Assembly: GCF_000485595.1 (NCBI RefSeq)
Contig: NW_014577578.1
Coordinates: 157,790-187,789, forward strand
Length of the DNA stretch: 30,000 bases
Reading direction: 5' to 3'
From: Priapulus caudatus
Taxonomy: Eukaryota; Priapulida; Priapulimorpha; Priapulimorphida; Priapulidae
Shown here: positions 1,591 through 25,200 of the stretch, one piece after another
How positions within the stretch are numbered: position 1 is the stretch's first letter
Layout: every line of letters begins with the position of its first letter
Notes under the pieces: generated by a model
What the model saw: only the letters and a program-made list of their open reading frames with translations
Database searches by the model: none
What the model was told of the DNA's origin: nothing
Position numbers and translations under genes: made by a program

Positions 1591-1630
1591 CAGGAGTAGA
1601 TAATAGGGAATTCCCTATTATCTACTCCTG
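1591..1630. mobile_element. Micro-palindrome insertion, 40 bp, with 8-bp target duplication
   Basis: A perfect 40-bp palindrome starts CAGGAGTAGATAATAGGGAA and is followed immediately by its exact complement, ending CTCCTG. It is flanked by identical ATGTTGAT at 1583-1590 and 1631-1638, as expected for a target-site duplication. The flank has a GTTGAT periodicity, so the duplication is a little less certain than at the other copies. It belongs with the elements at 13075, 17102, 18565, 20270 and 24321. Confidence 0.7.
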
Positions 1631-1777
1631 ATGTTGATGGATACTTGCTCAGTGAATATCGTGAAAATGCTGGTTGTATCATGTGTCTGACGTCATAATG
1701 ACAGGCTTTCAGATTTGAAAAGTACAGGAGGACTACTAATGACTCCCCTAGGACACCATAGGGGGTCTTTTCACGCT

Positions 1778-1895
1778 CCATAATCACACCCTTAAGAGGC
1801 ATGATGGAGAGCTCCACTAAAAATCACACCTTTAAAAGGGATGATGGAGAGCTCATTGAGGGCTCTCCATCATGCCTCTTGGTGTGTGATGATGG
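1778..1895. repeat. Hairpin with internal direct repeat
   Basis: Inverted arms about 36 bp long (1778-1814 and 1860-1895) share CATGATGGAGAGC and its complement. Inside, the left-arm sequence (AATCACACC..GATGGAGAGCTC) is repeated directly at about 1822-1854. It looks like a small foldback repeat with a partial tandem duplication. Confidence 0.6.
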
Positions 1896-2064
1896 AATCA
1901 TGACCAATCCTCAGTCTAGAGTGAAATCCAAAACGAAAATTGAGATGTCATGTCAATCTACTGATTATCATTCATCTTCACCTTCATTCATTCAATGGCT
2001 TCGTCAGGATTACATTCTTTTCATCCAACAACCCAACACTAGCACACAGATTAATAAAAGAGTT

Positions 2065-2140
2065 GAACGCACGGACGATCATGCGATTCTACAAGCTGCA
2101 TCTGACTATGTCAGATGAGCTAAAAACAATGCAAATGAGA
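2065..2140 (+). repeat. Dispersed repeat, copy 1
   Basis: This stretch contains TTCTACAAGCTGCAT, CTGACTATGTCA and GATGAGCTA in the same order as the reverse complement of 25822-25905. About 75-80 bases align with small indels. It is a decayed member of an interspersed repeat of unknown class. The open frames across it (1801-2118, 1940-2194) are not considered genes. Confidence 0.6.
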
Positions 2141-2368
2141 CAATCAGTGCATGCAGTCATACTTTGTACACAACATGCATACAGCAACATGTAAACCAGG
2201 CCTCCGTGATTATGAATGATTGTTGACCTCGTCGATTTCGCCAAAGCATAATCTTGACTTTTCATTTGGGGAACACCTTTACGATAATTAGACACAATTT
2301 CTGGCGTCCGAGACATTATTAGAGTTATTTTAACAAAATCATGCTATGAAAAAGTAACTCTGGCCAAG

Positions 2369-2461
2369 CCTAAAATAGCTCCCATAAAAAAATTACGACA
2401 GCTCTTTTTTCATACAAAATCAAAAAAGAGCTCTCGTTAAAAAAAAGAAATTTTTAGGCTG
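2369..2461. mobile_element. Small MITE-like hairpin, about 93 bp
   Basis: The outer inverted ends AGCCTAAAA / TTTTTAGGCT enclose an inner stem AGCTCTTTTTT (2400-2410) / AAAAAAGAGCT (2422-2432). It is AT-rich and non-coding. Similar AAAATAGCTC pieces occur in the intronic hairpin at 20464-20600. Confidence 0.5.
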
Positions 2462-2761
2462 TACTGTATACACCATATTTTTTGCGTACAGATATTTGCG
2501 CAAATTCAGACTTGACAGACAATTTCGCAAGTGGTTAATTTTGCGGTCGGTGAATTATGAATTATTCGGTATTGCTCGGTATGAATTATTCTATTGTTGT
2601 TATTTTCGCGGTCGGTAACACGTTCGCATAATCCGCAAAAATTAAACCACCGCGGAATATACAGCGTATACAGTACGCTACTCGTAGATGCGTGGCCACG
2701 GCGACAAGCTGGGCAGTGACAGACGGGAGAGATACCATCAGGACACACTACTCGCGGATAC

Positions 2762-2775
2762 GTTGCCGTGGCAAC
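2762..2775. promoter_or_regulatory. X-box-like motif (RFX site), isolated
   Basis: GTTGCCGTGGCAAC is a perfect palindromic match to the RFX X-box consensus GTNRCC-N0-3-RGYAAC. No gene is recognised within several kilobases, so a function is unproven. It sits in one of two imperfect direct repeats beginning TACTCG (about 2680 and 2750). Confidence 0.3.
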
Positions 2776-2957
2776 GCGCTCACCTTCTTTCGCAGCTTCC
2801 CTCGGATGTGGCAGAGCCGCTTGATGCCGTCGAAGCACATTGCTTCCAGCCTGCCGTTACCAAGCATCTTCACGACCTGCGCATATTCTGCCGGTCGCAG
2901 AGAGAAAGAAAAGAGAGTCAGTCGTTACCTGCAAGTGCAGTGACATGCATGCTGGAG

Positions 2958-3428
2958 AGAGAGGAGGAGGGAGGGAGGGAGGGAGGGAGGGAGGAAAGGA
3001 GAAAGAATGAGAAAGAGTGAGAGAGCGGGGGAAGAAAGAGAGAGAGTGAGAGAGAGGGGGAGGGAAAGATAACGACAGAGAGAGACTGCGCGGCGAAGAA
3101 CTGCCGGGTGCGTTCAGAGAGAAGCCGAGCAGAAAGTGTGCGTGCCGTGAAAGCGCTGTCTGCAAAAAGTGCGCTCGGCCGGGAAATAGCGACTGGCAGC
3201 GCGATATCGGCGACCCTAGTACGTAGCACCGCCCGGAAGATGCGCGGAGAAAGCGAGGCAGAGATGGGAGGAGAGAGATGGAAAGAGAGATAGGCAGAAA
3301 GAGAGCGAGCGAGAGCGAGAGAGATAGTGTGTCAGAGAGAAAGAGATCAAGAGAGAGAGGAAGAGAGAACGAGAGAGAACGAGAGAGAACGAGAGAGAGT
3401 GTAGGGGGAAAGATGGAGACAGACATAC

Positions 3429-3482
<54 letters not shown>
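2958..3482. repeat. GA-rich purine tract with (GA)n microsatellite
   Basis: From 2958 to 3070 the + strand is GGGA/GAGA-rich. A less regular GC-rich stretch follows, then GAGA-rich DNA from about 3240, ending in a pure (GA)n run at about 3429-3482. The serine/leucine-rich minus-strand frames (2857-3426, 3216-3788) are translations of this simple sequence and not genes. Confidence 0.85.
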
Positions 3483-3487
<5 letters not shown>

Positions 3488-3683
3488 CCTTAGTTCGCTG
3501 TGCAGTGTAAATTTCAAGAGCCGAACCGAAATTTACTTTCACCGCCAACCGCCATGTTTCCACTACGCATGCGTTTCGAATATTTTGATCAGAACGCGGA
3601 AAACCCGAAACGACATAACATACCATAGCGTTGCAACTCGCATTGGCGCGAGCATAAATAAGCATCATATACTCGTGTACATA

Positions 3684-3955
3684 CAGGGGCCTATCTAGGA
3701 TTTTTTTTCGAGGAGCGACAGCAAAACTTTCCGGGAATCGAGGAAAAAGCTGCAATCGGGAATGACACAGGAGTGTGCCGGCACCCAAAAAGAAACGTTG
3801 CTGTTTCGACGATCAAATAGGATCGATGTTTGCTGGGTCATATTTATTACGGGAAAATTACGTTCGTCACTTTTTTCGCCAAATAAGACTTTCAATTGCC
3901 AGATTACTAATTTGTTCGCCATTGGCGAATTGGCGAGTGGGTAGCGAGGGCCCTG
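3684..3955. mobile_element. Possible hAT-like non-autonomous element
   Basis: The ends read CAGGGGCCTATCTAGG and, as the complement of the right end, CAGGGCCCTCGC. CAGGG-type ends are typical of hAT transposons. The length is about 272 bp and there is no transposase. The flanking 8-mers do not match, so the boundaries are uncertain and the match could be partly fortuitous. Confidence 0.35.
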
Positions 3956-4201
3956 ATATAAATATTAAAACATTGAAAACCAGGAAACATTAATCTACAA
4001 CAACTGAATCATTATCATTGCGAAGATATGTACTCGACTTGTGTTTAGGCCTACGCACTGTGAAAACCAGGTCCATTGCCGATTTTACTATTTTTAGTCG
4101 CACCGGACATGGCGGCTTTCTTGTTGTGTTCAGTCAATTAATCTCAGAAAATACGGCCTACCTCGATAAATAAGTAGAGCCCAGTAGCACCCAGTTACCG
4201 C

Positions 4202-4682
4202 CAGTGTTTGCCACTGAGCAGAAAAAGCTGTAGGCTTGCAGGGCCTATAGCTCCTAAAAGCTGCAGGCCCGCCAGCAAAGCTGTAGGCCGCCAATTTTGG
4301 AGCAAATTACAGTACTTAATAAAACAGCATATCATGTTCTTCCTTGTGTTTATTAGTCATTATCAATGTCCATAATCATAATCCCTCTGTTTTTCCTTCC
4401 AACAGGGTTCCAGGCTATCGCTCTTTCATTTACAATCAGGCTGCGCGAATATGCAGTGGGCGAACGCATTGTTTACATGTATGTCACGGATTAGTTTTCA
4501 AATAAATACCCCTGGAAGTTAATATATGCAAGAAAAGATTTTTACAGGTAACAGTTTCTCAGTGTTTCGAATTTTCGGTGATCAAATAGCGATAGGATCA
4601 GCGGGCCTGTTTTATCAAGAAGCTGTAGGCCCGCCGGCATAAAAAACTGTCGGCGGCGGGCCGACGTGAATTTCGAACCCTG
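4202..4682 (+). mobile_element. hAT-like non-autonomous element, 481 bp, with 8-bp TSD
   Basis: The element begins CAGTGTTTGCCACTG and its complement begins CAGGGTTCGAAATTCAC. It is flanked by an exact 8-bp duplication GTTACCGC at 4194-4201 and 4683-4690. A CAGTG/CAGGG-type end with an 8-bp target duplication is the hAT superfamily signature. It contains recurrent AGCTGTAGGC / GCAGGCCCGCC segments and no open frame of note. A second, inverted copy lies at 21018-22177, sharing both ends and about 150-190 bp next to each end. Confidence 0.85.
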
Positions 4683-4896
4683 GTTACCGCGAGCAAGCCA
4701 GAGGTTTATAGATTCGTTTGAGCTATTACATGTGACGCTAGCCGTGTCGATGGTTGGATACCGAGCCAACTACAAGGTTTTATGGGCAAGAATTTGAAAC
4801 GGTATTCTAACCCTAGCAATACCGTTTCTTGGAGCTAGGGCCTACTGTCAGTTCTGATCAGCCGTAGCCGTGGCCTCTCGTACTGTAGCTCCCGTA

Positions 4897-5023
4897 TCCG
4901 AGTTCCCTCTGACCAACTTCAATGACCACACCGACAATTTTTGGTGGATTTGGTGTGGTGGATGTGGTGTGGAAAAACCCACCAAAAATCGTCGGTGTAG
5001 GCATTGGTCAGAGGAAACTCGGA
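4897..5023. repeat. Hairpin repeat, 127 bp
   Basis: Inverted arms share TCCGAGTT.CCTCTGACCAA outside and ACACCGAC.ATTTTTGGTGG inside. The central part is a GGTGTGG-rich stem. It is about 55 bases upstream of the TIR element at 5080 and was probably a separate insertion. Confidence 0.65.
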
Positions 5024-5079
5024 CTACGCATGATTGATCGTATGCCAGCCTCCAGACTAGCCTCTAGTAGTAGTGCTCA

Positions 5080-5305
5080 AGGGGTCGTTGTCGTAACAGG
5101 TACTACAGATGTGTACCCGAGGTACATATATGTATACACAAAGTGTACCAGACTTGTACTACAGAAGTGTACCCTAACCCTAACACTAACCCTAACCATA
5201 ACCCTAACCCTAAACATACCTCATATAAAACTATAAACATAATACTAAACAACCTAAAACTACCTCGGGTACATATCTGTAGTACCTGTTACGACAACGA
5301 CCCTT
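5080..5305. mobile_element. TIR element with internal telomere-like repeats, 226 bp
   Basis: Terminal inverted repeats of 45 bp (5080-5124 and 5261-5305) differ at about two positions; they contain GGTCGTTGTCGTAACAGG and GTACCCGAGGTA. The internal region is AT-rich and holds degenerate CCCTAA repeats at about 5167-5216. No clear target duplication was found. There is no transposase, so it is a non-autonomous DNA transposon of unknown superfamily. Confidence 0.8.
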
Positions 5306-6595
5306 CGTGCCACAGGCACTTGAAGCGTTTCAACTGTAAACACACGCCGCCGCCATTGCGCGCACACTGAAGGCCAAGACACACTGCAGCGACAACGACC
5401 GACCGTAACGACAAACGACTTTTCAGAAAATTAGAAACTATTGTTTCCTATGAGCCATTGCACACTGACGCGACGACGACCGGCGACAACCTCGACGACA
5501 AAAATATTTATAAACGTTTCTATTGCCAGCGCGACTGTCGCCGGCGACACGTTACAAAATGGCCAATCCCACCCAGCCGGTTTCCATCGGCATGGCGTGA
5601 CAGTCCGCGGCGGGAGTTACGTCATAAAGTGGATAACACGAATGGGCTAGCCAGGAGAAGTGAGACTGTTACGCAGCGCTAAAACTCGCTCACCGCCGTG
5701 TCAGAAAGGTGGGCGGATGGCCGCGAACCCATCGAACACCAAACCGGGTGCCGCAGACTTGCGGGGCCCGAGGCGCGCATGATTATTGGTTTGGTGTACG
5801 TGTCGGGGGGCGCTATAGATGGAGTATTACATATGCTGGCTTTGGTGGGGGCGTTAAGTTATTAGTGTGACTTGAGTTAGTAGTTCTCGCTGGTGAGTGA
5901 CAATAGAGCCGGTTTGTACGGGGGAGCTAATATCTGTTTGATTTAAAAATAGCGAGCAGCAGAGTTTTTTGTCGTTTGCTCTAAATGATGGCACTGTGGG
6001 TTGGGGTGGGGGGGGGGGGCTGGTTCGCGGGGGCCGGGGTGGTGAACTTTGACGTTACGGCGGTGTCGGCTCTCTGATCGCTGCAGTCGGTTCGGCCTGC
6101 GCCAGCGCCGCGACTTTGTCGTTCGTGGTTCGTTGACCGCGGCCTGGCTCGCTGTCAGCTGGTCAGTTGTGTTTGGCCTTGAACATAAGGGGTCGTGACC
6201 TATTACTTGGGTCAGGGGCTTCCTGGCGCATGTGGGTATACAGTATACCTACATATTATATATGTAGGTAGTATATTAGTGTGTGCAGTGGCGCGCAATG
6301 GCGGCGCGTGCGCTGTTTACATGGCGAAGGACGCTTCACAAGTGCTTGTGCTTCGGTGCGAGTAGTCAGGTACTGAGCTAGTAGTACTATGTCTAGGTAG
6401 GGGATATAAGGTATGCTGTGTAGAGGGGCGAAAAAGGGGGAGAGAGGGGCCGAAGTAAAAATTAGTATAGGCGTATACCTACAACACATTTTCGATCAGA
6501 TGATTTACTTTGATATTGATGCTACGCGATTTAATTTGCGGATCTATTACACACCCTTATTCCTCTTGGCTAGCTCGTATTTAGCCACTTAAGCA
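5306..6595. other. GC/CpG-rich intergenic stretch, no gene recognised
   Basis: The region is richer in CpG than its neighbours (CGACGACGACCGGCGAC near 5474) and has a long G run near 6007-6019 within a G-rich segment that could form a quadruplex. A 25-bp palindrome lies at 6246-6270 (TACCTACATAT and its complement). The 21-mer at 5313-5333 recurs exactly at 15913-15933. Short open frames show no family resemblance. It could contain a CpG-rich promoter or unknown repeats. Confidence 0.35.
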
Positions 6596-6622
6596 ACAAG
6601 CCAGAAACAGTTTCTGGCTTGT
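6596..6622. repeat. Perfect hairpin, 13-bp stem
   Basis: ACAAGCCAGAAAC is followed after one base by GTTTCTGGCTTGT. No flanking duplication is seen. Confidence 0.5.
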
Positions 6623-6903
6623 ATTCGTAACGATTATGCAGCTTTTTGTCAGCACGCCATTAACCCATGTCACACTGATTACATGCGCCAGAAAATCCAC
6701 ACACAGATGGAAACGCTGATGGAACAAGTTTACGCAACAAAAGCCACCAGGTACATGCCTCTTGTTATCGCGTCTTCCTAAATACGAAAACGTCGAAAGT
6801 GCCCGAATCCGGCACCGACAAACAAAATGTTCGAAAAAAAAGATGGCACCACTTACATCGAAAGGAAGTTAATTCTACATACACGCACGCCTCGCGATTG
6901 CGC

Positions 6904-7017
6904 AAACACACACACACACACACACACAACACACACACACACAACACACACACACACACAACACTACACACACCACACACACACACAACACACAAACACA
7001 CACACACACACACACAG
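6904..7017. repeat. (CA)n microsatellite
   Basis: Nearly pure ACAC on the + strand with small interruptions. The strand bias flips to TG-rich just downstream, where the degenerate minisatellite begins. Confidence 0.95.
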
Positions 7018-7095
7018 GCCCGCCGGAAGCAGTTCTTGTGATTGGGAGGCAAAGACCCATAAAGGCGGCTCTACGATTGTGGTTTTATCACGATT

Positions 7096-10000
7096 TGGCG
7101 CGCGTCGAGCGCTGTCAGTGCGCGACGTGTGTGCGTGGAGCGCGTGGTGTGTTCAGGACGTGTGTGCTGACGGCGTCGTGTGCGACTGTGGTGGTGAGCG
7201 CGTCGTGTGGCCGTGAGCGCGGGGTTGTGCGTGGAAGCGCATGGTGGCTGGGAGGCGTGTATGCGACGTCGGGCTGTGTGTGTGACGTCGGTGCGTGAGC
7301 GGTGTGTGCGATTTGTGTGTGGCTGAGCGTTGTGTGTGTGATGATCAGGTGTGCGTGTGTGCGTAGTGGTAGTGCGACTCCGTGTGGCCGTGTGCGAGTG
7401 TTGTGCGTGAGCGCGTCCGTGTGCGGCGTGTGGCGTGAGCCGCGTGGTGCGTGAGCGGTGTGTGCAGGTGGAGGCGATGTGTGCTGACGCGCGTGTGTTG
7501 TGAGTGTGTGCCGTGAGCGCGTGTCAATAGCGACGTGTTTGGTGAGCGATGTCGTCTGGCCGGGTGTGCGTGAACGCGTGTGTGCGACGTGTGTGCGTGA
7601 GCGCGTATGCGACGTGTGTGCCCGTGATGCGCGTGTGGCGTGAGGCCGCATGTTGTGTCACGTGTGTGCGCTTGAACGCGTGTGGCGACATGTGGGCGTG
7701 AGCGCGTGTGTGCGACGTGCTGTGCGGTGAGCGCGTGTGTGCGTGAGCGCGTATGTGTGCGACGATGTTGCTGAGCGCGTGTGTGTTATGTGGCTGCGTC
7801 GAGCCGCGTGTACTGCGACGGCTGTGCGCGGAGCGTATGTGTTGTGCCGGGGGGACGCGGTGTGCGATGAACGCGTGTGTGCGACGTGTTGCGTGAGCGC
7901 GTGTATGCCGACGTGTGTCCGGAGCGCGTGTGTGGCGTGAGGCGTATGTGCCACCAGGGGTGTGACGTGTGTGCGTGAACGCGTGTGTGCGACATGCTGG
8001 CGTAGAAGCGGTGTGTGCGAGTGTGTGCCGTCGAGCGGGTGTGCGACGTGTTTGTTGCGTGTTGAGCGCGTGTTTTGCGACGTTGTGGTGCTGTGAGCGC
8101 GTGTGTGCGTCGGCTTGATGCGCGTGGTGTGCGAGTGTGGCGTGAGCGTGGTTGTGCGTGAGCGCACGTGTGCTGAGCCGCGTGTGTTTGACTGATGTGT
8201 GGCGTGACGCGTGTGTGCCAGTGTGTCGTGTGTGCGACGGGTTGCGTGAGCGCAGTCGCGTAACGACCTGTGGCGTTGAGCGCGGTATCAAACGCGAGTG
8301 TGTGCGTCGAGCGTGTGCATGTGAGGGTAGCGCTGAGCCGCGTTGGTGCGTGAGCGCGTAGTGTCGCTGACTGTGGGCGTGATGCGCGGTGTGCGACCGT
8401 GTGTGCGTAGACGCGGGTGCGACCCAGCACCGTGTGTGGCGGGAGCGGTCGTGTTTGACGTGTGTGCCGTGCAGCTGGGCGTGTGTGTGACGTGTGTGCG
8501 GTGCGGTAGGTGCTGCTATGTGTGCGGTGACGGGGCGTTGTAGTGCGTCGCGATGCGCGTGTATGCCGACGTCGGTGTGCCGGGAACGCGTTTGTGCGAC
8601 CGTGTGTGGCGTAGCAGGCCGGGCATTGTTGGATGTGTTCGGGTGCCATCCGCCGTGAGCGCGTGGTGTGCCCGACGTGGGTGCGTCCGAGCGCGTGTCC
8701 GTGCGTGAGCGCGTGTGTGCGTGAGCGCGTGTGTGCGACTGTTGGTGCGTCGAGCGGTCTGTGGCGCGTGGTGCGTGAGCGCGTGTGTAGCGTGAACGCA
8801 ATGTGTGCGACGTGGGTGCGTGAGCGCCTGTTGCGTGTGTGCTTGAAGCGCCGTGTGCGACGTGGTGTGCGTGAGCGCGGTGTCGGTGCCGTGAGCGTGT
8901 TGTGTGCAGTAGAGCGCATTTGTGCTGAGCGGTGTGGGGTGATGTACAGTGTGCGTGCAGCGCGTCCGTGTGCGGAACCACACCACGAAGACCGCCGGCA
9001 GCCGCTGTGTGGTGTGAGTGAAACGTAGTGTGCCGTCCGAGCGCGTGCGTGCCCGACGTGTGTGGCGTGGGAGCGCGGTATGGCGACCCCTTGTGGTGCG
9101 TTGAGCGCGTCGGTGTGGACCTGTCCGCCGCGGGTGTGCGTGAGCGGTGTGTGGACGGGTGTGCGTCGAGCGCGTGTGTCGACGTGGTGTGCCAGTGCAG
9201 CGCGCTGTGCAGTGTGTGATGGTGAGGTTTGTGCGATCTGTGTGCTGGTTGAGCGCGTGTGTGCGGTTGCGCGTGTGTGCATGCATGTGTGCGTGAAACG
9301 CCGTGTGTGCGTGAGCGGGTCCCGTGTATTGCGACTGATGTCGTGAACCGTCGCGGCGACCGTGTCTTTTTCCCTGTGCTTGAGCGCTGTGTGCGAACTG
9401 CTGCGTGTGTGCGTAGAGCGCGGGTGTGCGGCGTATGTGTGCGCTTGTGCGACGTGTGTACGTGAAGCCGTGCAGGTGCGCGACGGTGGTGCGAGTCGAG
9501 CGGCGTGTATGCGACGAGACGCTCGCGCTGTGTGGCCGTGCGCTGCCGGTCGCCCGTGTGGACGTGTGTGCGAGTGGAGCGGCGTGCCCGCTGCGTGGGC
9601 TCTGCCCCCCCCAGCCCGCTTTCCATCGTGTGTCTCCTCCTCTGCATATCCCTTACAGACACCTCGTGCGTGGAGCGCTGTACGTGCGGACGTTGTGTGC
9701 TAGGCAGGCGCGTGTGCTGTCAGGGATCCGTCTCCCTCTCCTTCCATATCAACCTCCCGTTATACTCACTTTCAAGCTTTCTTTTCGGGTCATGCGTCGA
9801 CAGCGCGTGTGTCTGGCCTAGAGTACTGCCTCGTGCGTTGCGATGTGATTCAGTGCGTTGAAGCGCGTGTGTCGCGATGACGCGTGTGTATGCCCACCGT
9901 CCGTCGGCTTTTCTTCCGCCTCGTCCAAGGTCCTGTATCCTTACTCCGAGGGCACTGACCTATTGCGGCCTTCGGGACCGTTCCACGTGAGCAGCCCCTC

Positions 10001-10530
10001 CCAACGCGCTGCGCTCAACGGCTGTGTGCGTGACGAACGCGTGTGTGCGACAGTGTGCTCGCGGCGCCAGCGCTTGTGGTGCTAGTGTGTGCGTGAGCGC
10101 GTCGTTGTGTGCGTCGACGTCGCGCTGGGGCCGGGGGTGACGTCTCCGCTCCCCTATGCGCCGCCGCGTCGTCTACCCTGTGGTGATGCGCGTGCTCCTC
10201 CATCGCCGTTACATGCTGCCTCGTTGTACAGTCGCTGGCCTCGTGGCGTGACGGGGTGTGGTGCACACTGTGGGGCTGCGTTGAGCGCGCAGGGTCCGTG
10301 TGTGGCCTCTGGAGCGCCGTGTGTGCGACCTTGCTTTCGAATGGTGCTGTGAGCGCCGGTGTGGTGCGTGAACCACTGTATCGCGACTGTCGGCGCGCGT
10401 GTAGCGCGCTTATTTAGACGGTGCCCCTGCACCATCCTGTACCACTCCCTGTGCCGGTGACTCGCGCGCGTCGTGCGTACGTGTGGTCGATTACGAGTCG
10501 CGCATGTCGTGTGACGTGTCCAGCTGCATG
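7096..10530. repeat. Degenerate GTGCG minisatellite, about 3.4 kb
   Basis: The + strand is dominated by variants of GTGCGTGAGCGCG followed by TGTGTGCGACGTGT, a unit of roughly 26-28 bases, from 7096 to about 9340. It becomes more interrupted, with pyrimidine-rich blocks, to about 10530. Units vary mainly by one-base insertions and deletions. The core alternates purine and pyrimidine over long stretches, which favours Z-DNA. The 712-codon minus-strand frame at 7524-9662 and its companions consist of THTRAH-type low-complexity peptide and are artefacts of the repeat. Confidence 0.85.
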
Positions 10531-12239: not shown

Positions 12240-12312
12240 TGCGTGCGTGCGTGCATGCGTGTGCGTGCGTGCGCGCAATTATAATATTATATATATATAT
12301 ATATATATTATC
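12240..12312. repeat. (GTGC)n and (AT)n microsatellites
   Basis: GTGCGTGC repeats run to about 12275, followed by an AT run at about 12288-12310. The AT run abuts the 3' end of the LINE fragment downstream and may be its tail. Confidence 0.8.
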
Positions 12313-12838
12313 AAGAGTGAATAAAAACAAATATATATAAATATGAAATAACCTCATAACCTCCTCATAAGTGATAATCTTCAAAAGTCCTGGAGACTAT
12401 AACGAAGATGGAGAGAGTGGATCAAGTCGGTAGATCCACACTGCGGATTGCAGCGGAAAAAGTTGTGAATTTGCTATTTACTAAGGATGAAGGCAGTGAA
12501 TTCCAATACGGAATCACAGAGACAAAGAAGCTCAACTTAAAGGGATCCTTAGAAGTTTGTACATGCCGAAAACAGTGATCACGCTCAGATGAGCGGGTGC
12601 AGCGAACAGGCTTCATTAAGCAAGAAGGAATGGCAATTTTCATCTCACCATGATAAATTTTATAGAAAGTTATGAGTTTTGAGTGAAGAAAGTGGACACG
12701 AAGAGGAGGCCATTCAAGACGAGCCAAAACAACATCAGTACTATCATCATAGTTTCTGGAGACCCATCTCGCAGCTTTATGCTGAATGGTGTCCAATCTA
12801 GAGCAGTTCTGAAGTCTATAGGGGCACCAGGCTGTTAA
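12313..12838 (-). pseudogene. Non-LTR retrotransposon 3' fragment: C-terminus of the reverse transcriptase ORF
   Basis: The minus-strand frame 12838-12422 translates to about 138 residues ending in a stop at 12422. It resembles the C-terminal part of Jockey/CR1-type LINE ORF2 proteins, downstream of the catalytic reverse transcriptase motifs: AWCPYRLQNCSRLDTIQ, KAARWV, FYKIYHG and SFFVSVIPYWNSLPSSLV, matching the family patterns Q.KAAR and SFFP..I..WN.LP. Everything upstream (catalytic YADD region, endonuclease, ORF1) is absent, so this is a 5'-truncated dead copy as expected from target-primed reverse transcription. The 3' untranslated part runs to about 12313 and ends beside an (AT)n run. 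The last bases resemble one arm of the micro-palindrome family (see findings). Confidence 0.8.
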
Positions 12839-13074
12839 ATAAATAAATAATAAATAATTAGCAGACTTGGCCTATGTTATATATACACTTGCAAGAAAAT
12901 CGGCCCAAAAATAAAAGATAAATGTTCATATATATGATTGATAGAGAATTACACACATATTGAACTTATTTGAATCCTATGCAACCTCACCGTTTCACCG
13001 GTCGGCATTCGCCGCCCATAATAGGTTTATTCCATATATTACGCACTTTGGAATTTTGACACGAGAGATAAGAT

Positions 13075-13107
13075 CAGGAGTGTATCAAAAGTTTTGATAC
13101 ACTCCTG
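13075..13107. mobile_element. Micro-palindrome insertion, 33 bp, with 7-bp target duplication
   Basis: CAGGAGTGTATCAAAA, one central base, then the exact complement ending ACTCCTG. It is flanked by identical ATAAGAT at 13068-13074 and 13108-13114. This is the shortest member of the family seen here; it leaves no room for anything but its own stem. Confidence 0.8.
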
Positions 13108-13177
13108 ATAAGATATATAAGAGATGGCGCCACGATGTCCAAATTCAACATTGGAGGTCATGTATATCAATTCGGAG

Positions 13178-13596
13178 GGGTGTTGCTATACCCCGGGCGT
13201 GGAGGGAGGTCACGTGATAACGTTGACGATGACGTTCAAAATGTTAACCCTAACGGTAAACTCTCACTCCAACACCGCCACCACTAACACTCACACTAAA
13301 TATGTATGTGTCGCCGCGCTATATATAGGCAGTGTTATTCACAAAAATTAATCTATGGTGTGGGGACAGATATCATGATGCAAAAATCCTAACCCTAACG
13401 TACCCTAACCCTAACCCTAACCCTAACACTATCACTAACCCTTAAAATTAAAAATTAATAATTAATAATTAAAAATTAACCCTAACCCTAACCCTAACCC
13501 TAACCCTGACCCTAACCCTAATCCTAACACTATCCTAACACTAGTGCTGCCACGTTGCGGTCACCTCCCTCCACGCCCGGGGGATAGCATTACCCG
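13178..13596. mobile_element. hAT-like TIR element with telomeric repeats inside, 8-bp TSD
   Basis: The inverted ends GGGTGTTGCTATACCCC and (complement) CGGGTAATGCTATCCCCC continue into CCGGGCGTGGAGGGAGGT. Exact 8-bp direct repeats ATTCGGAG flank the element at 13170-13177 and 13597-13604. The 419-bp element has no transposase. Two CCCTAA tracts occupy its middle. The TSD length fits hAT (also P-like) transposases; the ends are not a standard hAT sequence. Confidence 0.8.
13388..13545. repeat. Interstitial telomeric repeats (CCCTAA)n
   Basis: CCCTAACCCTAA tracts lie at about 13388-13440 and 13475-13545, separated by an AT-rich spacer of AAAATTAATAATT type. Both tracts are imperfect. They lie inside the TIR element, so they are interstitial and do not mark a chromosome end. 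Confidence 0.9.
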
Positions 13597-13604
13597 ATTC
13601 GGAG

Positions 13605-14206
13605 TACACCGGGTGACCGATCGTGACGGCAGCCTTTAAGAATAAGCAACCGTCGAATATACAACTGAACATCGGTAACTTAATTAGAATTTAATTAGAA
13701 CAAAATTTGTGTTGAAACTAAGAAATATAAGCTTTTCAATAATCCGTGACGACCAATCACAATTAAATACTAAACTCTAAGTCAACAAAAACGACCAATC
13801 ACATGTTAGATAATACAGCAATGTTTGCAATCGCATATGTTTACAGTTTTACTATGGTGAAAACACCAAAAACTTGATGAGGTTAGGCCTACACATTTCA
13901 ATATACCTTTGAATCAGGTAAGCAGGACGTTACCAGAGAGACATGATACAAGATTGCGTGGCACAGCTTTGCTGTTGATCCTAAGCGCTGCGCGCGGATG
14001 AGACGCGCAGTTCCACGGGATATGCGCATGCGACCGCGGGGATGTTCAATTCACAATTGTATGAAGCGCTGTCTGCAGTGGAGACGTGCGCCAAACTCCA
14101 TGACAGATGGCGCTCTCGCTCATGAGCTCAATCTACGAGTATCCTGAGTGTACGAAGGTGCACTGTATGCAGTTTGGCATCGGCCTAGACTTGTACCCGG
14201 TCGACA
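13605..14206. other. Intergenic, nothing recognised
   Basis: ACGACCAATCACA occurs twice (about 13750 and 13790). No coding frame or element with clear ends was found. Confidence 0.35.
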
Positions 14207-14262
14207 GTTCCACACGCTACACTAACAGCGGCAGTGTAGCGAAGGATACTTGCCGGAGGGAA
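14207..14262 (+). repeat. Direct repeat A, partner at 15064-15121
   Basis: ACACGCTACACTAAC, then GTGTAGCGAAGGATACTTG, recurs in diverged form 15070-15114 (ACACGCTCCACTAAC, then GTGTAGCGAAAGATACTTGG). Each copy contains its own small dyad (CGCTACAC / GTGTAGCG). The roughly 860-bp interval between them includes the open frame 14595-14969 (124 codons), which I do not recognise and consider unlikely to be coding. Confidence 0.5.
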
Positions 14263-15063
14263 GGTGGCGAACGGGTACCATTCTAGCATCGGCCGGGCAT
14301 TTCATTATTTACGAAAAGTAAACACAGTCGGTATAGGAACTGGGCAAGTCGGTGACGCCCCATTCATGCCCATCAATGAAGAAGGCGGGGCTTATTCTGA
14401 TTACGGAGATGCAAAAATGCAACAAAAGTACGTAGCGCAGTGCGCAAACGGTGTGTTATTTTCGTTTTTGTGCCAAACTCTATCGTAGGAAACCGTTCTA
14501 TCCTAGCAGAATGCCCTAGTTCCTGAGATCGGCGATTTCGTACTGTGATGGGTCCCCACCTATAACAATTTATAAGGGAGGTGCGGCGTAGGCTGTGATT
14601 GGAGGACACAAAGTGTCAATCCTCGGCTCGCCTCGGCATTATGGCCACATCACGTCTAGAAAGGGAATGTTCGGCTGCTTGACGATCTGCAGCCCGGATA
14701 TACGCGCGAAGCGCGAACAGCGCCACCTCGTGGTGCCTTTTGAGACAATTCGCGGCCCTGTATGTAGAACTAACTACTCGAAGCCCTCTGGGTACTACAG
14801 AAAGCCCGAGAATCGGTCAATTGAGCAGTTCTGGCGATTGCAGAAGCCTTTCGACTCTGCACGTAGGGCGAGAATAAATCCAATGGTCGTAATTGCTAAT
14901 TTTTTTGGTTGGCGCGTTACGTTTTCGTCTAGAAAAGCGATTTCTAATTTATTTAATTTAACGCCCTGAACTTATTCTCGTACATATCGCGTCCCATAGA
15001 TGGCGCGACGAGGCTCTCTTCGAGGGATTTTCCAGAGAATTTTCCTTAGACTGCCCCGCGGTG

Positions 15064-16655: not shown

Positions 16656-16664
16656 TATATCTAA

Positions 16665-18456
16665 TACTAGCTGCGGGTACCCGCTGCGCTGGGTAAAATC
16701 GTGCTACTAATTCATAGTACTATAATAATGGGACAGAATAGGAACATTGGGTAAAAATCGACACTAACATTGCAGACAATATTAATATTTAGAAATGAGT
16801 GTAATAAGATAATAAGCATGGGAAAAACGAAAAAACTGTTACATATGACATTTATATGACAGCACAACCGAACTTAGAACCCCTGGGACATAATAGTAAT
16901 ATGGTGTAAATGACAAAAAGTTATTATAAGAGCATGTAGGAATGGGTTGGACTTTTCATTTGAAAGCCTCTTGATAAAGAATGTATTTCGTCTTATTCTC
17001 TGGTGCAAATATGTAAAGATTCCTGGTGTCTCCAACTCTTGAGCTCCCCACGTACAGCTATCCATTGTGAGATCGTAGCATGAATAAAAGGAATATAGTA
17101 TCAGGAGCTAATAATGACAAATTTGCCATTATTAGCTGCTCATAGTATAGATAGAGACACACAACCATGCACATTGAAATGAAGAGATTTCCCTACTGAA
17201 TCAGAAACTGCATAGCTTTCGAATGGTACAATGCATTGTGAGATCGTAGCATCTGAACTGAACCTCTGAGCTGAGTGAGTAGTACCTCTGAACTGGTGAA
17301 ACTGGTGCTGGTTGTGGTGTGTTTTAGTATTGGTTTCGGTTTCACAATACCAGCAGCCGGATGAGATGGGGAATCGATTTTTCTCTCTGTGGCAGCACTG
17401 TACAGTCAGTGCTGACATTGTGTGAAGATTCACGAATTGACGGGTTTTTCACGGATTTTTCGGTGAGTTTAACGGTTTGACAGGTTTTTTTCATCTAGGA
17501 ACACTCCCCGGGTATAAGAGATGGCCCTGTGAAAATTGCATCCAGATCGCTTGGGCGGTTTGGCCGCCTATAGGGAAGATACATACATACATTCATAGAT
17601 AGATAGATACATACGAACTCAAATATATATTAGATGTATTTGAGTTCGTATGTATGTATGTATGTATCTTCCCTATAGGCGGCCAAACCGCCCAAGCGAT
17701 CTGGATGCAATTTTCACAGGGCCATCTCTTATACCCGGGGAGTGTTCCTAGATGAAAAAAACCTGTCAAACCGTCAAACTCACCGAAAAATCCGTGAAAA
17801 ACCCCTCAATTCGTGAATCTTCACACAATGTCAGCACTCACTGTACAGTGCTGCCACACACAGAAAAATTGATGACTATTTCTCTCCCTCATTTCATCAG
17901 CTGCTGGTATTGTGAATCCGAAACACATTCCGATCAGCCGCACGTGCGTGCCCCCTCGCCTCTGATCCCCTCGCCTGCATTACGCTGTCGCTGTCGTTAC
18001 GACTGCATTGTTTATCAAGCGGCTTTCAAATGAGAAGTGCAACCCATTCGTACATGATGTTACGTGCCGTACGTGCCATACGTACATGCCGTACGTGGGC
18101 AGCTCAACAGTTCGAGACGCCAGGAATCTTTACATATTTCCACCAGAGAATAACACAAAAAACATTGTTTATCAAGAGGTTTTCAAATGAAAACTGCAAC
18201 CCATTCGTACATGCTGTTATAATAACTTTTTCTCATTTACACCATATTACTATTATGTTCCAGGAGTTCTAAGTTGGGTTGTGCTGTCATATAAATGTCA
18301 TACGTAACAGTTTTTTCCCCATGCTAAATTGTAAATATTGATATTCGGTGCAATGTTATTGTCGATTTTTACCCAATGTTCCTATTGTGTCCGATTATTA
18401 GTAATATGAATTAATAGCACGATTTTACCCAGCGCAGCGAGTACCCGCAGCTAGTA
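16665..18456. mobile_element. Inverted dimer / giant foldback, about 1.8 kb
   Basis: Two copies of an approximately 890-bp sequence lie in opposite orientation. Outer ends are TACTAGCTGCGGGTAC; inner ends are (ATAC)n tails meeting at a near-perfect palindrome around 17625. By eye the arms are essentially identical for about 100 bases either side of the centre, differ by only about 2% over the next 100, and are about 90% identical at the outer ends. The right arm has an internal partial duplication (TTTATCAAG.GG.TTTCAAATGA at about 18010 and 18166). Similar short peptides from both arms (sharing ETPGIFTY) reflect the shared DNA and do not make a gene. The transposon class is unresolved. Confidence 0.8.
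17102..17141. mobile_element. Micro-palindrome insertion, 40 bp, with 7-bp target duplication
   Basis: CAGGAGCTAATAATGACAAA is followed by its near complement (17 of 20 pairs), ending GCTGCTC instead of the usual CTCCTG. Identical ATAGTAT flanks it at 17095-17101 and 17142-17148. It lies in the left arm of the 1.8-kb inverted dimer. Confidence 0.75.
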
Positions 18457-18564
18457 TATATATATAAATGAAGTCGCCTAATAAAAATCCGTGCGTAATG
18501 ACCCAGAGGCGGCATCTATCGGGGAAAAAGTAACAAAATCCATTAATCAGTTATAATCTACAAT

Positions 18565-18620
18565 CAAGAGCATATAATTATAAAGAAGGTATTCTTTATA
18601 CCCTTCTTTATACGCTCTTG
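18565..18620. mobile_element. Micro-palindrome insertion, 56 bp, with 7-bp target duplication
   Basis: The ends are CAAGAGCATATAA and its near complement TTATACGCTCTTG. The middle forms its own stem, TATAAAGAA-GGTA-TTCTTTATA. Identical CTACAAT flanks it at 18558-18564 and 18621-18627. It differs from the other copies by CAAGAG in place of CAGGAG. Confidence 0.75.
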
Positions 18621-18835
18621 CTACAATCTATTCCTTATGAGCCCATAGCCTTAGCCTCAGAGGTGGTAAGGGGGCAGCTGCACACGTTAGATTTTGAAAG
18701 AAAAATCAACACAAGCTAGACAAGTGCAATTAACCACGAAACACAATTATATCATGTCATCCATGAGGCCCTTATGTAGCACACACCCCTGCCGCGCTAC
18801 GCACATAGCTGTACACGTGTTAGCTCTAGAACTAT

Positions 18836-18880
18836 AGTCCTTCGCTCTGCACCAGAAACCTTTGCAGAGCGAAAAAGGAC
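18836..18880. repeat. Hairpin, 11-bp core stem
   Basis: TTCGCTCTGCA (18841-18851) pairs with TGCAGAGCGAA (18863-18873), extended by GTCC / GGAC beyond a two-base bulge. It lies about 190 bases upstream of the SLC22 start codon; no function is inferred. Confidence 0.45.
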
Positions 18881-18910
18881 ACAGGTTTAGTTGACTTGAA
18901 GCTCTGACTC

Positions 18911-18939
18911 TGCTAACCTGAAGCATTTCTTTCATTCAG
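18911..18939 (+). promoter_or_regulatory. Possible 3' splice site of a 5'-UTR intron
   Basis: TGCTAAC matches a branch-point consensus and is followed by ATTTCTTTCATTCAG, a good polypyrimidine tract and AG at 18938-18939. This would place an untranslated first exon upstream and start the ATG-bearing exon at 18940. The frame is open from 18940 to the ATG, but the next Met is at 19063. If true, the X-boxes downstream would lie in transcribed DNA. Confidence 0.3.
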
Positions 18940-18991
18940 GGAAAGCACTTCTATATAGTTGCAACAAAGTGGCGAACCCTGGGCAGGACCT

Positions 18992-19050
18992 GTTACCAGG
19001 GCAACACCTTGGGGTGCGTAACCAAGGCAACACACAGTAACCACGGTAAC
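18992..19050. promoter_or_regulatory. Cluster of three X-box (RFX-type) motifs upstream of the SLC22 start
   Basis: GTTACCAGGGCAAC (18992-19005), GTAACCAAGGCAAC (19018-19031) and GTAACCACGGTAAC (19037-19050) each match the X-box consensus GTNRCC-N2-RGYAAC perfectly. They end 12 bases before the ATG. X-boxes bind RFX transcription factors, which drive ciliary and some immune and endocrine genes in animals. The motifs also form a loose tandem repeat (spacing 26 and 19), so a chance minisatellite origin is possible. Confidence 0.5.
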
Positions 19051-19062
19051 CAACGCGTCGAG

Positions 19063-19205
19063 ATGCATTTCGACGAGGTGCTGGAGCACCTCGGTGAGAT
19101 GGGGCGCTATCAGTGGCGCATGCTGTTCTTTGTGGGACTTCCCATTCTGTTTGTGGGGATGGAGACGATGGCGCCAGTCTTTCTAGCCGCGGTTCCGCAC
19201 CACAG
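19063..19205 (+). CDS. SLC22 exon 1 (residues 1-47 plus 2 nt)
   Basis: It encodes the cytosolic N-terminus and TM1. The ATG is preceded by GTCGAG, so a purine is at -3. The upstream frame is open but lacks another ATG nearby. The exon must end at 19205 (CACCACAG) to give the H-H-R-C-F-V-P junction; the next intron bases are GCAAGT, a strong GC-donor consensus. Confidence 0.85.
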
Positions 19206-22200
19206 GCAAGTATTCTCGGTAGTGTCAGGAGCGAATGAATAACAATGGAGAGAATGAAAACGAGTGTTGGCGTTTATTCACTCCAGTGTTTCAATTTGCC
19301 TTTATTTATTTGAGACAGTGTTTCAATTTGCCTTTATTCATTCCAGTGTTTTAATTTGCCTTTATTTATTCCAGTGTTTCAATTTGCCTTTATTCATTCC
19401 AGTGTTTCAATTTGCTTTTATTCAATCCATTTACAACTCATTATAATAATTTTGTCATTATTCACGTGACGGAAAATCGCATAAAAGCGACAAGACAAAT
19501 TTGCAATCTCCTCACCATCTGCACAGTAGAATCGCTAGCTTAAAAAAACGAGTGATAACACTAGAACATGCGCGACAACACAAGAACGCTCTCTTGGTTC
19601 CCGCGTCAGGTGCTTCGTGCCGGGATGCGACGACCCCATCGACCCCACCTACAGCGCCCCCTGGCTGAACGGGACGATACCCTGGGAGATGCGCGATGGG
19701 GCGTGGCAGCGCAGCCAGTGTGACTACTACGCAGTGCCGTCCGACGTTGTGCGAAACTGCTCGGTCGCCCGTCGCCGCGGCGACGCCGACGACAAGCCCC
19801 GGGTGGCGACCTGCGACAGATGGGTGTACGACACGTCCATCTATGCGGCTACCGTGACGACGGAGGTGATTTGCTTGTTGCCGTGGTCACGGATGTATTT
19901 AACCGACACTGTGTCGTGCATTGCGTTGCTATGCCATATGCTTTAATTGCTACACTATGCGTTGCTATGCTGTGCCATGATACGCTATATATGCTATGCT
20001 AAATGTGTATATATATATATATATATACATATAATATATATACAGAAAATATTGAAATGATGACAACTGGAGACATAATTATGCACTAATGTTTTCACTT
20101 TATTAGCTTATCAGGTGCATATATCTTCAGGTATATGATATGCACCTGAAGAGCTAATGAGGTGAAAATGTTAGTGCATAACTATATGTCTCCAGTTGTT
20201 ATCATTTCAATGTTTTGTGTGTAATTTAACTTGCATTTGGAAAATTGAGCTTTATATATATATATATACCAGGAGTGAATAATAACAGATTATATCATCT
20301 ATTATTATTCACTCCTGTATATACTTTAGCTTTCTTTAGGCTTCTTTAGATCAGTTTACCTTCCAAGTTTATTCTTAAGCTAGACAGCCTGGCTGTTCGT
20401 TACCCTCGGACTACCGCACCGTATGTTGGTGGGGCTGGCGCGCATTCATTGATGTTCCACGGTTCAGGTAAAAAATTCTTTTTCAAGTCTGTGGGAAAAA
20501 TAGCTCTCGTCAAAACTTTTACGGGAGCTATTTTGAGCCTCACGGGAGCGATTTCGGAGGTTTGGGAGCTCATCGCTCCCGTGCATTTTTTACCCTGGTG
20601 TTCACCGTCTCGGTTTGCTTCCTCTGCGCAGTTTGACGTCGTGTGTGGCAGGGAGTGGCTGATGGCTCTCTCGCAGGCGATGTTTATGGCAGGAATCCTC
20701 GTCGGAAACGCCGTCTTTGGGTCGCTGTCTGACAAGTAATTTAATAGTTAAAATTTTTTAATTTAGTATTTTAAGTTTGAGGCCTTGGAAGGCATTGTCA
20801 GAAATAATCTTATTAGTGTTAGTCTTAGATAATAGTCTTAACATGAGTCTTAACTTTAGTGTTAACGTTAACTGGAATTTAGTTTAAGTCTTGACGTTAA
20901 CAAATAATTTGATGCCTTGGAGGGCATTGTCAGAAATAATATTATTCGTGTTAGTCTTAAACAATAGTCTGAACACACTTTTACGTTAGTCTTAACGTTA
21001 ACAAGTAAGTTTGAGGCCAGTGTTCGAAATTCACGTCGGCCCGTCGCCGACAGTTTCGATGCCCGGCCTACAGCTTCTTGATAAAACAGGCCCGCTGATC
21101 CTACAGCTATTTCATCACCGAAAATTCGAAACACTAAGAAACTATTACCTGTAGAAATACCCTAACCCTACCCCTAACTCTAACCGACTCGGCTATCTTA
21201 TATACGCGTGTACCCAATTAATCTATGGTGTATAACCTTTTGCTTTCAATATTTTGCATCTGAACTGACAATCAATCCCAACCAACTGGTGTAGGCTAGC
21301 TGGCACAATAATGTTCATTTTCATACTTCAAATCCGAGTGTTTTCTAGCTTATCAAGAAATCTTAATCGTGAATTAAATCGTGAATTAATTTCCAACGGC
21401 ATTATTACGGGGCAGGTAACCCAGTCTAACACGAGGTAGAGTAGACTGGTACACTTACTGACCACTCCTGCCATTGTATGTTTTGTACATAACACTAGGG
21501 GTAGAGCCCACAATAACAAAATACAAACAGTGGACATAGCCAAAGGCAAATGGTAAGTCAGATCCAGAACAGTGTGTCGATAGTAAAACTACATAATACA
21601 AATGAGTAAAATGATATAAGAAGATTTACAGTACCAGTATAGTTAATTGGTATGTATATGCAGTGTTGGAAAAAAAGACAAAAATTCCATCCGGTCCTGA
21701 TTAAAAGGACCTTTCTTGAAAATTAGCCAGTCCTGCTCCAAAAGTAGCCAGCCCTGCTGAAAAGTTACCAGTCAGGGACTATGGGACCAGCTGCTATTTC
21801 CAACACTGGCTTTGCCCATGCAAAACAAACATTTTCACCCCACATGCAGTGCTTCAAATTTACACACAGAGTGTCCCAGATTGCATCTCAGAACTTCTAC
21901 AATTCAAAAATTTTCCAGGGGCCCATTCCCCGGACCCCCTTAGCACGGAGCAGCACCCCCATGCTATAATGAAAAAGCTTGGACAACCCTGGGGATTATG
22001 ATTATGGACATTGATAATGACTAATAAACACAAGGAAGAACATGATATGCTGTTTTATTACTGTAATTTGCTCCAAAATTGGCGGGCCTACAGCTTTGCT
22101 GGCGGGCCTGCAGCTTTTATGAGCTAGCCTATAGGCCCTGCAGGCCTAAAGCTTTTTCTGCTCGGTGGCAAACACTGTTTGAGGCCCAGGAAGGCATTGT

Positions 22201-25200
22201 CAGAAATATAGTGTTATAGTCTTAGATAATAGTGTTAACATGAGTCTTAACGTTAACTCGAATTTAGTTCTAGTCTTAACGTTAACAATTAAGTAATGCG
22301 ATGCCTGGGAGGGCATTGTCAGAAATAATATTATTCGTGTTAGTCTTAAACAATAGTCTTAACACACTTTTACGTTAGTCTTAACGTTAACAAGTAAGTT
22401 TGAGGCCCGGGAAGGCATTGTCAGAAATATAGTGTTAGTCTTAGATAATAGTGTTAACATTGAGGCTTAACATTAAATTTTTCTCGTGGATCTGACCTCA
22501 ACGTTAAATTTTTCTCGTGCATCTGACCTCGGTGCGCTTCGTGTGAGAAACCCGCAACTTTACGATGTTTTTGTTAGTGATCTTCGAGAAAAGTTCAGTT
22601 TTAAGACTTAATGTTAAGACTAATCTTGTTTCCGACCAGAGCTAAACTCCTGTTTGCCTCAGATAGCGCTCCTAGCACCAAATATTCGCGATTTTGTGTC
22701 AACTTATTTCGCCGCGTGGAGCGAGACCATCGTCATTGCAGCACCGATTCATTCTCGCAATCTATAATTTTTTATAGTCCAAGTCTAAAGTCTTCATAGT
22801 TGCGCACGACTTTTGCGTTTGACTGTTGAACTTTTACGAAGAAGTCGTTGTGCAAAAAAAGTTTCAACTACGCTTAAAATCGATCATGTTATGACGCGCA
22901 CCGCGAACAACGCGACGTTACTCCAGCGTGCATTAATGCGTTCACTTGTCGTCGTCGGCACGCGCTGCGAACAACGCGACGTCACTCTATCGTGCATTAA
23001 TGTGTTCACTTGTCGCCGTTGTCGTGGCGACACAGGTACGGCAGAAAGCCGCTGCTGTTCGTGGCGTTGGTCCTGATGGTGGCGTCGGGCGTGGGTTCCC
23101 CGTTCACGACGAACATCTACGCTTACACGGCCGTGAGGTTCCTCGTCGGAATGGGGTGTTCGATGTTCGCGGTCGCCTTCATCCTCGGTGAGTTCGTCTC
23201 GCGCGGAACATTTGCGAGTGTTTTTTTCGCAAACGCCGGCGAAATACATCTTCGGTAGAGCGTGATATATCTACTGAATCGAGTGTGAGAATGCGGTGAG
23301 AACGTTTGTTACGCGGCGTAGCGAAAACCATTTAATTTCAATATTTAAAATTAAAATTAATTTTTTTTGTACAAATTGAGAGTTTGGTAGATGCGCCATA
23401 TCTCTCTACACATGCACGTACACGCGTACGCACGCAGACACGCGCACGCACGCACACACACTTGTAGGGTATGTATATATATGTACTCAGACACTACACA
23501 ATTCAGACACGATGCCTTCGATTCGGACAGTGATAGCACATGATTTCGAGATGGTCCCCGCAACACTGCCGCGAGCGGCTCACCTCACCTTACGCAGTGT
23601 TGTCTCGATGCAGGTGTGGGGATGTGCGGGCGATATCCATTGAATCAACCATCAGAATCATTTGTTACGAGGTTTACTGCACCATTCCACAACCAAGAAA
23701 AGAATTTTTTTTTCAATCGTTGAAACGAATGATTTGGACAGGGATATCGCACGTGATTTCTAGATGTTTCTACGCGGTGTCTTCTCCGACAGGTGTGGAG
23801 ATGTGCGGGCCGTCTAAACGTCTTCTCGCGGGAATGCTGGGCATGTACTGGTTCGCTCTCAGCTACCTCACCCTCGCCGGCGTCGCTTACTTCTTCCGGG
23901 ATTGGAAGCAACTGAGCCTCATCATCTCCTGCCCGGCGGCCATCTTCTTCGGATTTTGGTGGTGAGAGTTCTAGCTATAGTCCCGTATTATAGTTCTCGT
24001 TAAAATGCTACTAAGGGAAGCTCTTCACTATGAAGACACGATAAAGGTATATGAAGGAGCAAGTGTATATGAGGTGAGACATCACTCGGTAGTATCCAGT
24101 ACTAACTGCATAAGTAAAATGAACTCGAGTATGTGTGATTTACGACGAAATTTTATACATAGCTACATACGTTATTGCGTAGCTAACCCTGGGTGAGCTG
24201 GTGGCGGGGGGGGGGGCAGTGTGCAGGTTCCTGTGAGATAAACCAGGAGTTTGGAATAATGTAGATCATAATATAAGGAATATATAAAGTATAAGAATAT
24301 ATATATAGGAATAATATAACCAGGAGTGTCATAATATAGATGTGTCATATTATCTATATTATGACAATCCTGGAGTTACCAGTTTACCTGTTATGCAGTA
24401 CCATAGCTAGCTAACCCATCTTGCCTGGGGTGGGTTGGGGGTGGGGTTGGCAATTAAAGCCACCTGCATGGTGTGGTTTTGGGAATGTGACTGCCATTGA
24501 CCATACGATGTATCAAAATTTCACTGGGGGTGGGGGCAACTGACACCCTTGTCCCCAGTAGCCGTTGGTTCGGATGCTAACTTATTTTGTTACGTAGCAA
24601 TGCAAGACTTGCTGTCATACGACATGCTGTCATAAAATTGCGAAGCATAACAAACCCGTTTCATCGCTTGGTCTCCGAACCCGTGCTCTAATCTAACGTT
24701 GCTGCAATTTTTTAATTTACGGAGAATAGTCGTTGTCTGATCTGTCAGAACCGGATTCCATTTTCCGTTTTGGATTCCAGGTTGATTCCGGAGTCAGTGC
24801 GGTGGCTGATCTCGCAGGGGAGGATGGAGGAAGCTGAGGCAATCGTGAGGAAGGTTGCCGTGGTTAACCGGGTGCGGCTTCCTGATTCGCTGTTCGACAG
24901 TCTCGAGGAAGAGACGGAGGTGGGTTGTATTTGTCTCGTGATGCTGTGTATGTGTGTGTGTGGGGGGGGGGTGTATGTGTGTTTGTGTCTGCATGTGCGT
25001 GTGTGTTTGTGTCTGCATGTGCGTGTGTGTTCGTGTGTGCGTGCATGCGTGCATGCGTGAGTGTGTATACAAGCTTTCAGTTTCAGTACATAGACACGCG
25101 TGAAGCGCACGTAAATCATGCATCTGTACAATGCCGTGAGCCGATTTTTAGCTCACCTTGACGTCGTGGGTCGTCGTCCGTCGTTCCTCCGTCCGTCCGT

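Follow-up and report, generated by a model that had tools for sequence, protein, structure and literature searches.

Short palindromes between direct repeats in Priapulus caudatus DNA as plausible excision scars of P-superfamily-like transposons

Which process leaves behind a palindrome of a few dozen base pairs, neatly set between direct repeats, at several places in one stretch of animal DNA? This question is raised by 30,000 nucleotides of Priapulus caudatus (assembly GCF_000485595.1, contig NW_014577578.1, positions 157,790 to 187,789 of the forward strand, hereafter the window), which hold six palindromes with CARGAG ends, labeled A to F and measuring 40, 33, 40, 56, 48 and 52 bp, respectively. 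The explanation favored here, with moderate confidence, is that a DNA transposon of the P superfamily, or one with a similar manner of cutting, has departed from each of these sites, and that the palindrome is what remains after repair of the empty site.

Palindrome A (1591-1630) is perfect and loop-free, and lies between exact 8-bp repeats of ATGTTGAT (1583-1590 and 1631-1638). Palindrome B (13075-13107) has perfect 16-bp arms around a 1-nt loop and is flanked by ATAAGAT (13068-13074 and 13108-13114). The arms of palindrome C (17102-17141) are mismatched at positions 1, 4 and 16, resulting in a right end that reads CTGCTC, and ATAGTAT is found on both sides (17095-17101 and 17142-17148). Palindrome D (18565-18620), with CAAGAG ends between copies of CTACAAT (18558-18564 and 18621-18627), has arms that match, but for one mismatch, up to position 13 and are out of register from there on, around a center that holds a repeated TTCTTTAT. 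Palindrome E (20270-20317) is mismatched only at positions 17 and 22 of its 24-base arms and sits between copies of TATATAC (20263-20269 and 20318-20324), a repeat that adjoins a TA microsatellite. Palindrome F (24321-24372) is mirrored through position 21, with a mismatch at 6, followed by a 10-nt center containing GTGTCATA, which is also present in its left arm; it has no direct repeat. A sequence-only reading of this DNA had described the six palindromes with these positions and ends, including the aberrant CTGCTC, as well as exact repeats at five of them and none at 24321-24372, and the same sequences were recovered here. Palindrome C is further bracketed by a 19-bp direct repeat, CATTGTGAGATCGTAGCAT, at 17063-17081 and 17234-17252 (starts 171 bp apart), and is enclosed, together with a large palindrome at 17373-17873, by inverted arms of 230 bp (91% complementary) at 16829-17058 and 18088-18317, about 1 kb apart.

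Are these flanking repeats more than coincidence? Exact direct repeats abut both ends in five of the six palindromes, 8 bp long in A and 7 bp long in B to E, and this is far above chance, since only 440 of the 179,611 positions considered in the window (0.24%) have an exact 7- or 8-bp repeat at the palindrome spacings. A scan of the window for 24-120 bp spans whose outer 10 bp form inverted ends (at most 2 mismatches) and which lie between exact 7-9 bp repeats yielded 10 rows, five of which are palindromes A to E; the others are a poly-A case, a ~100-bp element at 14185-14286 that was found twice, part of the 17373-17873 palindrome, and an AT-rich case (28338). Shuffling within 500-bp blocks gave a mean of 0.55 rows and a maximum of 6 (200 shuffles), and global shuffling a mean of 0.07 and a maximum of 1 (n = 100). 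A generic list of 19 short palindromes contains 13 outside the CARGAG family, one with an 8-bp A-rich repeat, one with a 6-bp repeat, and 11 with no repeat of at least 5 bp; in this list, C and D are cut back to their cores, so that their repeats are missed. Among the direct repeats of A to E, T is found at position 2 in four of five, and A at the next-to-last position in all five.

How are the two arms of one palindrome related to each other and to those of the other copies? All six have CA..TG inverted ends that are joined directly or by a short filler, with the exception of the deviating right end of C, and with D agreeing over about 13 bases. Within the half-length, the arms match at all 20 positions of A and all 16 of B, whereas mismatches number 3 (of 20) for C, 14 (of 28) for D, 2 (of 24) for E and 6 (of 26) for F. 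In their first 16 bases, arms of the same copy are on average 93% identical, as opposed to 64% for arms of different copies (maximum 81%), and the true left-right pairing of arms scores best of all 720 pairings, which is expected if the arms are the two ends of one element. Positions 2, 5 and 13 from the outer end are A in 12 of 12 arms, and no shared center or shared full arm was found between any two of the six palindromes. That stems differ between copies while arms match within them had been remarked on from the letters alone and is borne out by these numbers, albeit with imperfect mirroring. Hairpin-templated copying, which had been invoked to explain the mirrored changes, is not needed, because the arms would correspond to both terminal repeats of a single element that has since departed.

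The lengths of the palindromes give an indication of how much of such an element may have been retained. Palindromes A and C are both exactly 40 bp long, with their center after position 20. The arms of F agree through position 21, except at position 6, and positions 22-26 all differ. In A, C, E and F, the dinucleotide AT occupies positions 20-21 of each arm, although in A and C this is dictated by the location of the center. About 21 nt seem to have been kept on each side, as two such tails minus a 2-nt AT overlap add up to the 40 bp of A and C; with 21-nt tails, six extra bases are expected to yield the 48 bp of E, and ten extra bases the 52 bp of F. Templating of the filler is suggested in F (8 of 10 nt, p = 0.015, GTGTCATA) and in D (8 of 14 nt, p = 0.038, TTCTTTAT), and no templated filler was detectable in E (p = 0.38), all three tests being uncorrected. 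A 17-nt tail was considered as well, but with it A and C would have six nucleotides to spare that are palindromic by coincidence (GAATTC and AAATTT), and the mirroring of F to position 21 would be unexplained, so that 21 is preferred; B alone would fit 17. The T found at position 21 in 11 of 12 arms was not used, since this position lies beyond the center in A, B and C.

What sequence of events could produce such structures? An element would have inserted, duplicating 7 (sometimes 8) bp of its target. On each strand, its transposase would later have cut exactly at the element border for the 3' end, and about 21 nt into the terminal inverted repeat for the 5' end, such that each chromosomal end would keep the duplication and a ~21-nt 3' tail of terminal repeat. 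The two near-identical tails would then have been end-joined. Pairing of self-complementary tips, AT on AT, followed by fill-in would yield the 40-bp palindromes A and C, short templated synthesis before joining would leave a filler in F, and probably in E and D, and trimming would result in the shorter product B. The sequence-only reading had allowed for two origins, mobile hairpins or a repair process that makes a palindrome at a break with staggered ends; the second fits well once the break is taken to be the long staggered cut of a departing P-type transposon, whereas the first is not favored, as set out below.

In flies, the same structures arise from a version of this process with 17-nt tails, and it is by analogy with this that an element, a transposase and a cut of this kind may be postulated for the present animal. 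P-element transposase makes its 3' cuts at the element border and its 5' cuts 17 bp inside, resulting in 17-nt 3' tails, and is described as using internal binding sites (PMC7776569). The donor site in flies keeps the duplication and 17 nt per end because the cut lies 17 nt inside the terminal repeat. P donor sites repaired by end joining in flies without Rad51 have been tabulated by Chan, Yu and McVey 2010 (PMC2895639, Tables 1-3). Table 1 of that paper holds 66 isolates in 28 rows (the text gives 68 sequenced), and when its rows are picked out by hand, 33 of the 66 retain the two 8-bp duplications, with 25-44 bp in between, along with 12 nt or more of each terminal repeat, and 19 of the 66 are perfect loop-free palindromes, 30 or 32 bp long, with AT or TA at the join. 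Other isolates carry templated insertions (PMC2895639). The fly footprints resemble the window palindromes in their direct duplication, their inverted terminal-repeat ends starting with CA, and their loop-free palindromes joined through AT or TA or, alternatively, fillers of a few to tens of nucleotides, which are often copied from nearby in flies and look so in F and D of the window. They differ in that 17 nt are kept next to an 8-bp duplication, whereas the window palindromes apparently keep ~21 nt next to a duplication of mostly 7 bp (PMC2895639).

Related systems bring further similarities and differences, insofar as the excerpts of the respective papers go. Duplications in the P superfamily are 7 or 8 bp long; those of Galileo in Drosophila are mostly 7 and occasionally 8 bp, as in the window, and have a near-palindromic consensus, GTANTAC, that is compatible with the nT..An pattern of the window repeats (PMC4168063). 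Unlike the window, where neither an element nor a transposase was seen, Galileo is known from annotated copies that have terminal repeats and in some cases also segments of transposase (PMC4168063). Zebrafish Pdre2 / THAP9 is likewise a P-type element in an animal host outside the insects, but it has 13-bp terminal repeats and 8-bp duplications, and natural palindromic scars are not described in the excerpted parts of its report (PMC10983969). A survey of excision footprints in rice also reads scars from natural genomes, with fillers that average 13 bp; it differs in comparing two species and in covering other superfamilies, and the excerpt consulted lists mostly deletions and fillers and no terminal-repeat palindrome (PMC4423477).

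Several observations weigh against excision scars as the origin of the palindromes. The fly isolates are laboratory events from one construct in repair mutants, unlike the natural sites of the window (PMC2895639). In the portion of the rice survey that was available, both duplications were left cleanly in only 8 of 94 excisions, and flanking sequence was lost in 43, in other superfamilies (PMC4423477), so that scars with intact duplications need not be the usual outcome. A 21-nt tail is not described in those parts of the P-element literature that were examined, and the value of 21 was chosen after the data had been seen. The break after position 21 in E amounts to a single mismatch, as its sole inner mismatch, at 22, precedes two positions that match; B extends no further than 16-17 nt, and D fits only with an extra insertion. 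Consequently, it is A, C and F that carry the case for a 21-nt tail. Palindrome F has no direct repeat although both arms are intact, and the right end of C deviates. Global alignment to the 17-nt fly P end gave p = 0.018 for E, p = 0.026 for F and 0.37-0.94 for the other four, a likeness too weak to be used as direct support. Besides the palindromes, no other CARGAG-ended element of up to 12 kb was found in the window by a scan for exact 7-8 bp duplications with 14-bp inverted ends (at most 4 mismatches, ungapped) that excluded low-complexity duplications and elements running off the window. A Pfam search of 26 distinct reading frames, out of 53 with a length of 100 amino acids or more, revealed no transposase, a weak negative, as the SLC22 transporter frames of the window were also unmatched; two sub-threshold matches to viral families were taken as chance. 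If the window is representative, excision would have to be very frequent to leave five or six scars in 30 kb with no donor nearby. An extended form of the scar explanation, in which the genome holds, or once held, diverse P-type transposons with a ~21-nt cut whose removal was so frequent that scars dot the genome while elements are scarce, perhaps through regular developmental excision in the sequenced tissue, is considered rather unlikely. The commonest arm, CARGAGTGAATAATAAYAGA, had no match in viral contigs and genome contigs, nor did the paired-arm pattern in viral contigs; these collections are viral or prokaryotic and uninformative for animals.

Could the palindromes instead be elements in their own right? 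Miniature inverted-repeat transposable elements (MITEs) have inverted ends and target duplications and no coding capacity, and the main rival explanation, which is less probable but deserves to be taken seriously, holds that each palindrome is an ultra-short, non-autonomous transposon of this kind, with two terminal repeats around a near-empty interior, moved by a transposase that duplicates 7-8 bp. Insertion alone, with no excision step, would then suffice to explain the related ends at six sites and the exact duplications at five, and the high density and missing donors would follow without mass excision. An amplified unit should recur, however, and no two copies have a common center or full arm (best 81% over 16 bases), although there are only six copies to compare. 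The palindromes also differ from MITEs in being below their typical size and in lacking shared internal sequence. The 33-bp copy is too small for internal binding sites such as the P transposase uses, and, on general grounds, the ends would need to be brought together across some three helical turns. The mobile hairpins of the sequence-only reading are not favored on the same considerations, as an element of 33-56 bp has hardly any space, if any, for internal binding sites and neither center nor full arm is held in common. Alternatively, longer fold-back MITEs may have inserted and then lost their centers by hairpin deletion, such that only the outermost stems remain. The large near-perfect palindromes at 27403-28139, 17373-17873 and 621-1058 do point to a genome that carries fold-back elements, but deletion would have had to stop at near-equal depth on both arms to give the loop-free or 1-nt-loop centers of A, B and C, and the element scan found no large inverted repeat in the window with CARGAG ends and a 7-8 bp duplication; this origin is regarded as improbable.

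Footprints of a superfamily other than P (hAT, Mutator, KDZ or an uncharacterized one) that leave terminal-repeat sequence behind are given a smaller chance still. The cut geometry of several animal superfamilies is not known, and CA..TG ends together with the one 8-bp duplication would also fit hAT, but four of the five duplications are 7 bp long. Elements of the hAT superfamily normally make an 8-bp duplication, and their excision scars alter the flanking DNA without keeping ~20 nt of terminal repeat. Membership in hAT was dropped on both of these grounds; it had fairly been remarked before that hAT duplications are not usually 7 bp long, and lengths of 7 and occasionally 8 bp have been reported for Galileo of the P superfamily. 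De novo formation of palindromes through template switching during replication, or quasipalindrome correction that copies one arm from the other, would produce mirrored changes directly and could act secondarily on any palindrome. As a sole origin it is disfavored because of the flanking duplications, and it predicts neither these exact 7-8 bp repeats nor CARGAG ends common to six sites, making it the least probable of the explanations considered.

If the palindromes are indeed excision scars of P-superfamily-like transposons, what would be new about them? The mechanism is already known from flies, and it is natural scars with a tail of ~21 nt that would be new. No description was found in the open-licence literature of palindromic P scars across a genome, of natural scars with a 21-nt tail, or of MITEs this small. 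Very short palindromes, easily missed by repeat annotation, would then be a readable record of transposon departures, each scar revealing the target duplication, the depth of the cut in the terminal repeat and the repair pathway without the need for a second genome. In other animals, too, sequence alone would then suffice to measure the cutting geometry of P-type transposases, and excisions of the past could be counted in addition to the insertions that survive.

Are there ends of this kind outside the six palindromes? Six matches of at least 14 bits to the 14-base end motif lie elsewhere in the window, versus a mean of 0.38 and a maximum of 2 in shuffled sequence (n = 100). Lone ends are found on the plus strand at 12312-12332 (CAAGAGTGAATAAAAACAAAT, 17.7 bits, no partner seen), 27383-27403 (CAAGAGCTAATAATAGCTAGA, 15.7 bits) and 485-505 (CAAGAGTACATAATAGAGAAG, 14.1 bits), and on the minus strand at 26926-26946 (CAGGAGCGAATAATTACCATA, 19.3 bits). 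These lone ends fit one-sided repair. The idea that the lone end at 27383 had inserted into an arm of the old palindrome at 27403-28139 was dropped, as only a 5-base match lies behind it. A possible degenerate seventh palindrome spans 19226-19286, where inverted end matches (plus strand at 19226, minus strand at 19286; 15.0 and 15.3 bits) are found 61 bp apart. It has no clear duplication, and its right end falls inside the first unit of a 28-bp minisatellite. This minisatellite (19273-19429, 5.5 copies) starts inside 19226-19286, and its unit resembles the palindrome end motif (TTTATTCATTCCAG).

The window is marked as animal DNA by SLC22 transporter exons, recognized by matches of its reading frames to solved SLC22 transporters. 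Matching frames start at 20350 (frame 20350-20736, E = 3.3e-4), 23537 (E = 8.5e-6) and 24716 (E = 3.6e-9), and a frame starting at 23001 matches weakly (E = 0.078). Palindrome F sits between SLC22 exons near 23770-23965 and 24780-24910 (frames 23537 and 24716), and palindrome E is found just upstream of the SLC22 exon in frame 20350-20736. To judge by eye, frame 18922-19242, downstream of palindrome D, may be a first SLC22-like exon, and palindrome E may be intronic, given the similar appearance of frames 18922 and 19539.

The window also contains repeats of other types. The three large palindromes at 27403-28139, 17373-17873 and 621-1058 have arms of 240, 240 and 74-100 bp, respectively, that are 88-99% complementary, which suggests that they are fold-back elements of other families; the one at 621-1058 is bounded by TTAA-like ends. 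A 100-bp element at 14186-14285, with imperfect inverted ends between exact 9-bp direct repeats of GCATCGGCC, looks like a small MITE of another family. Finally, an element of ~420 bp at 13178-13595 has 36-bp inverted ends (89% complementary) with ATTCGGA on both sides, and encloses telomere-like arrays of CCTAAC (13388-13442) and TAACCC (13477-13543).

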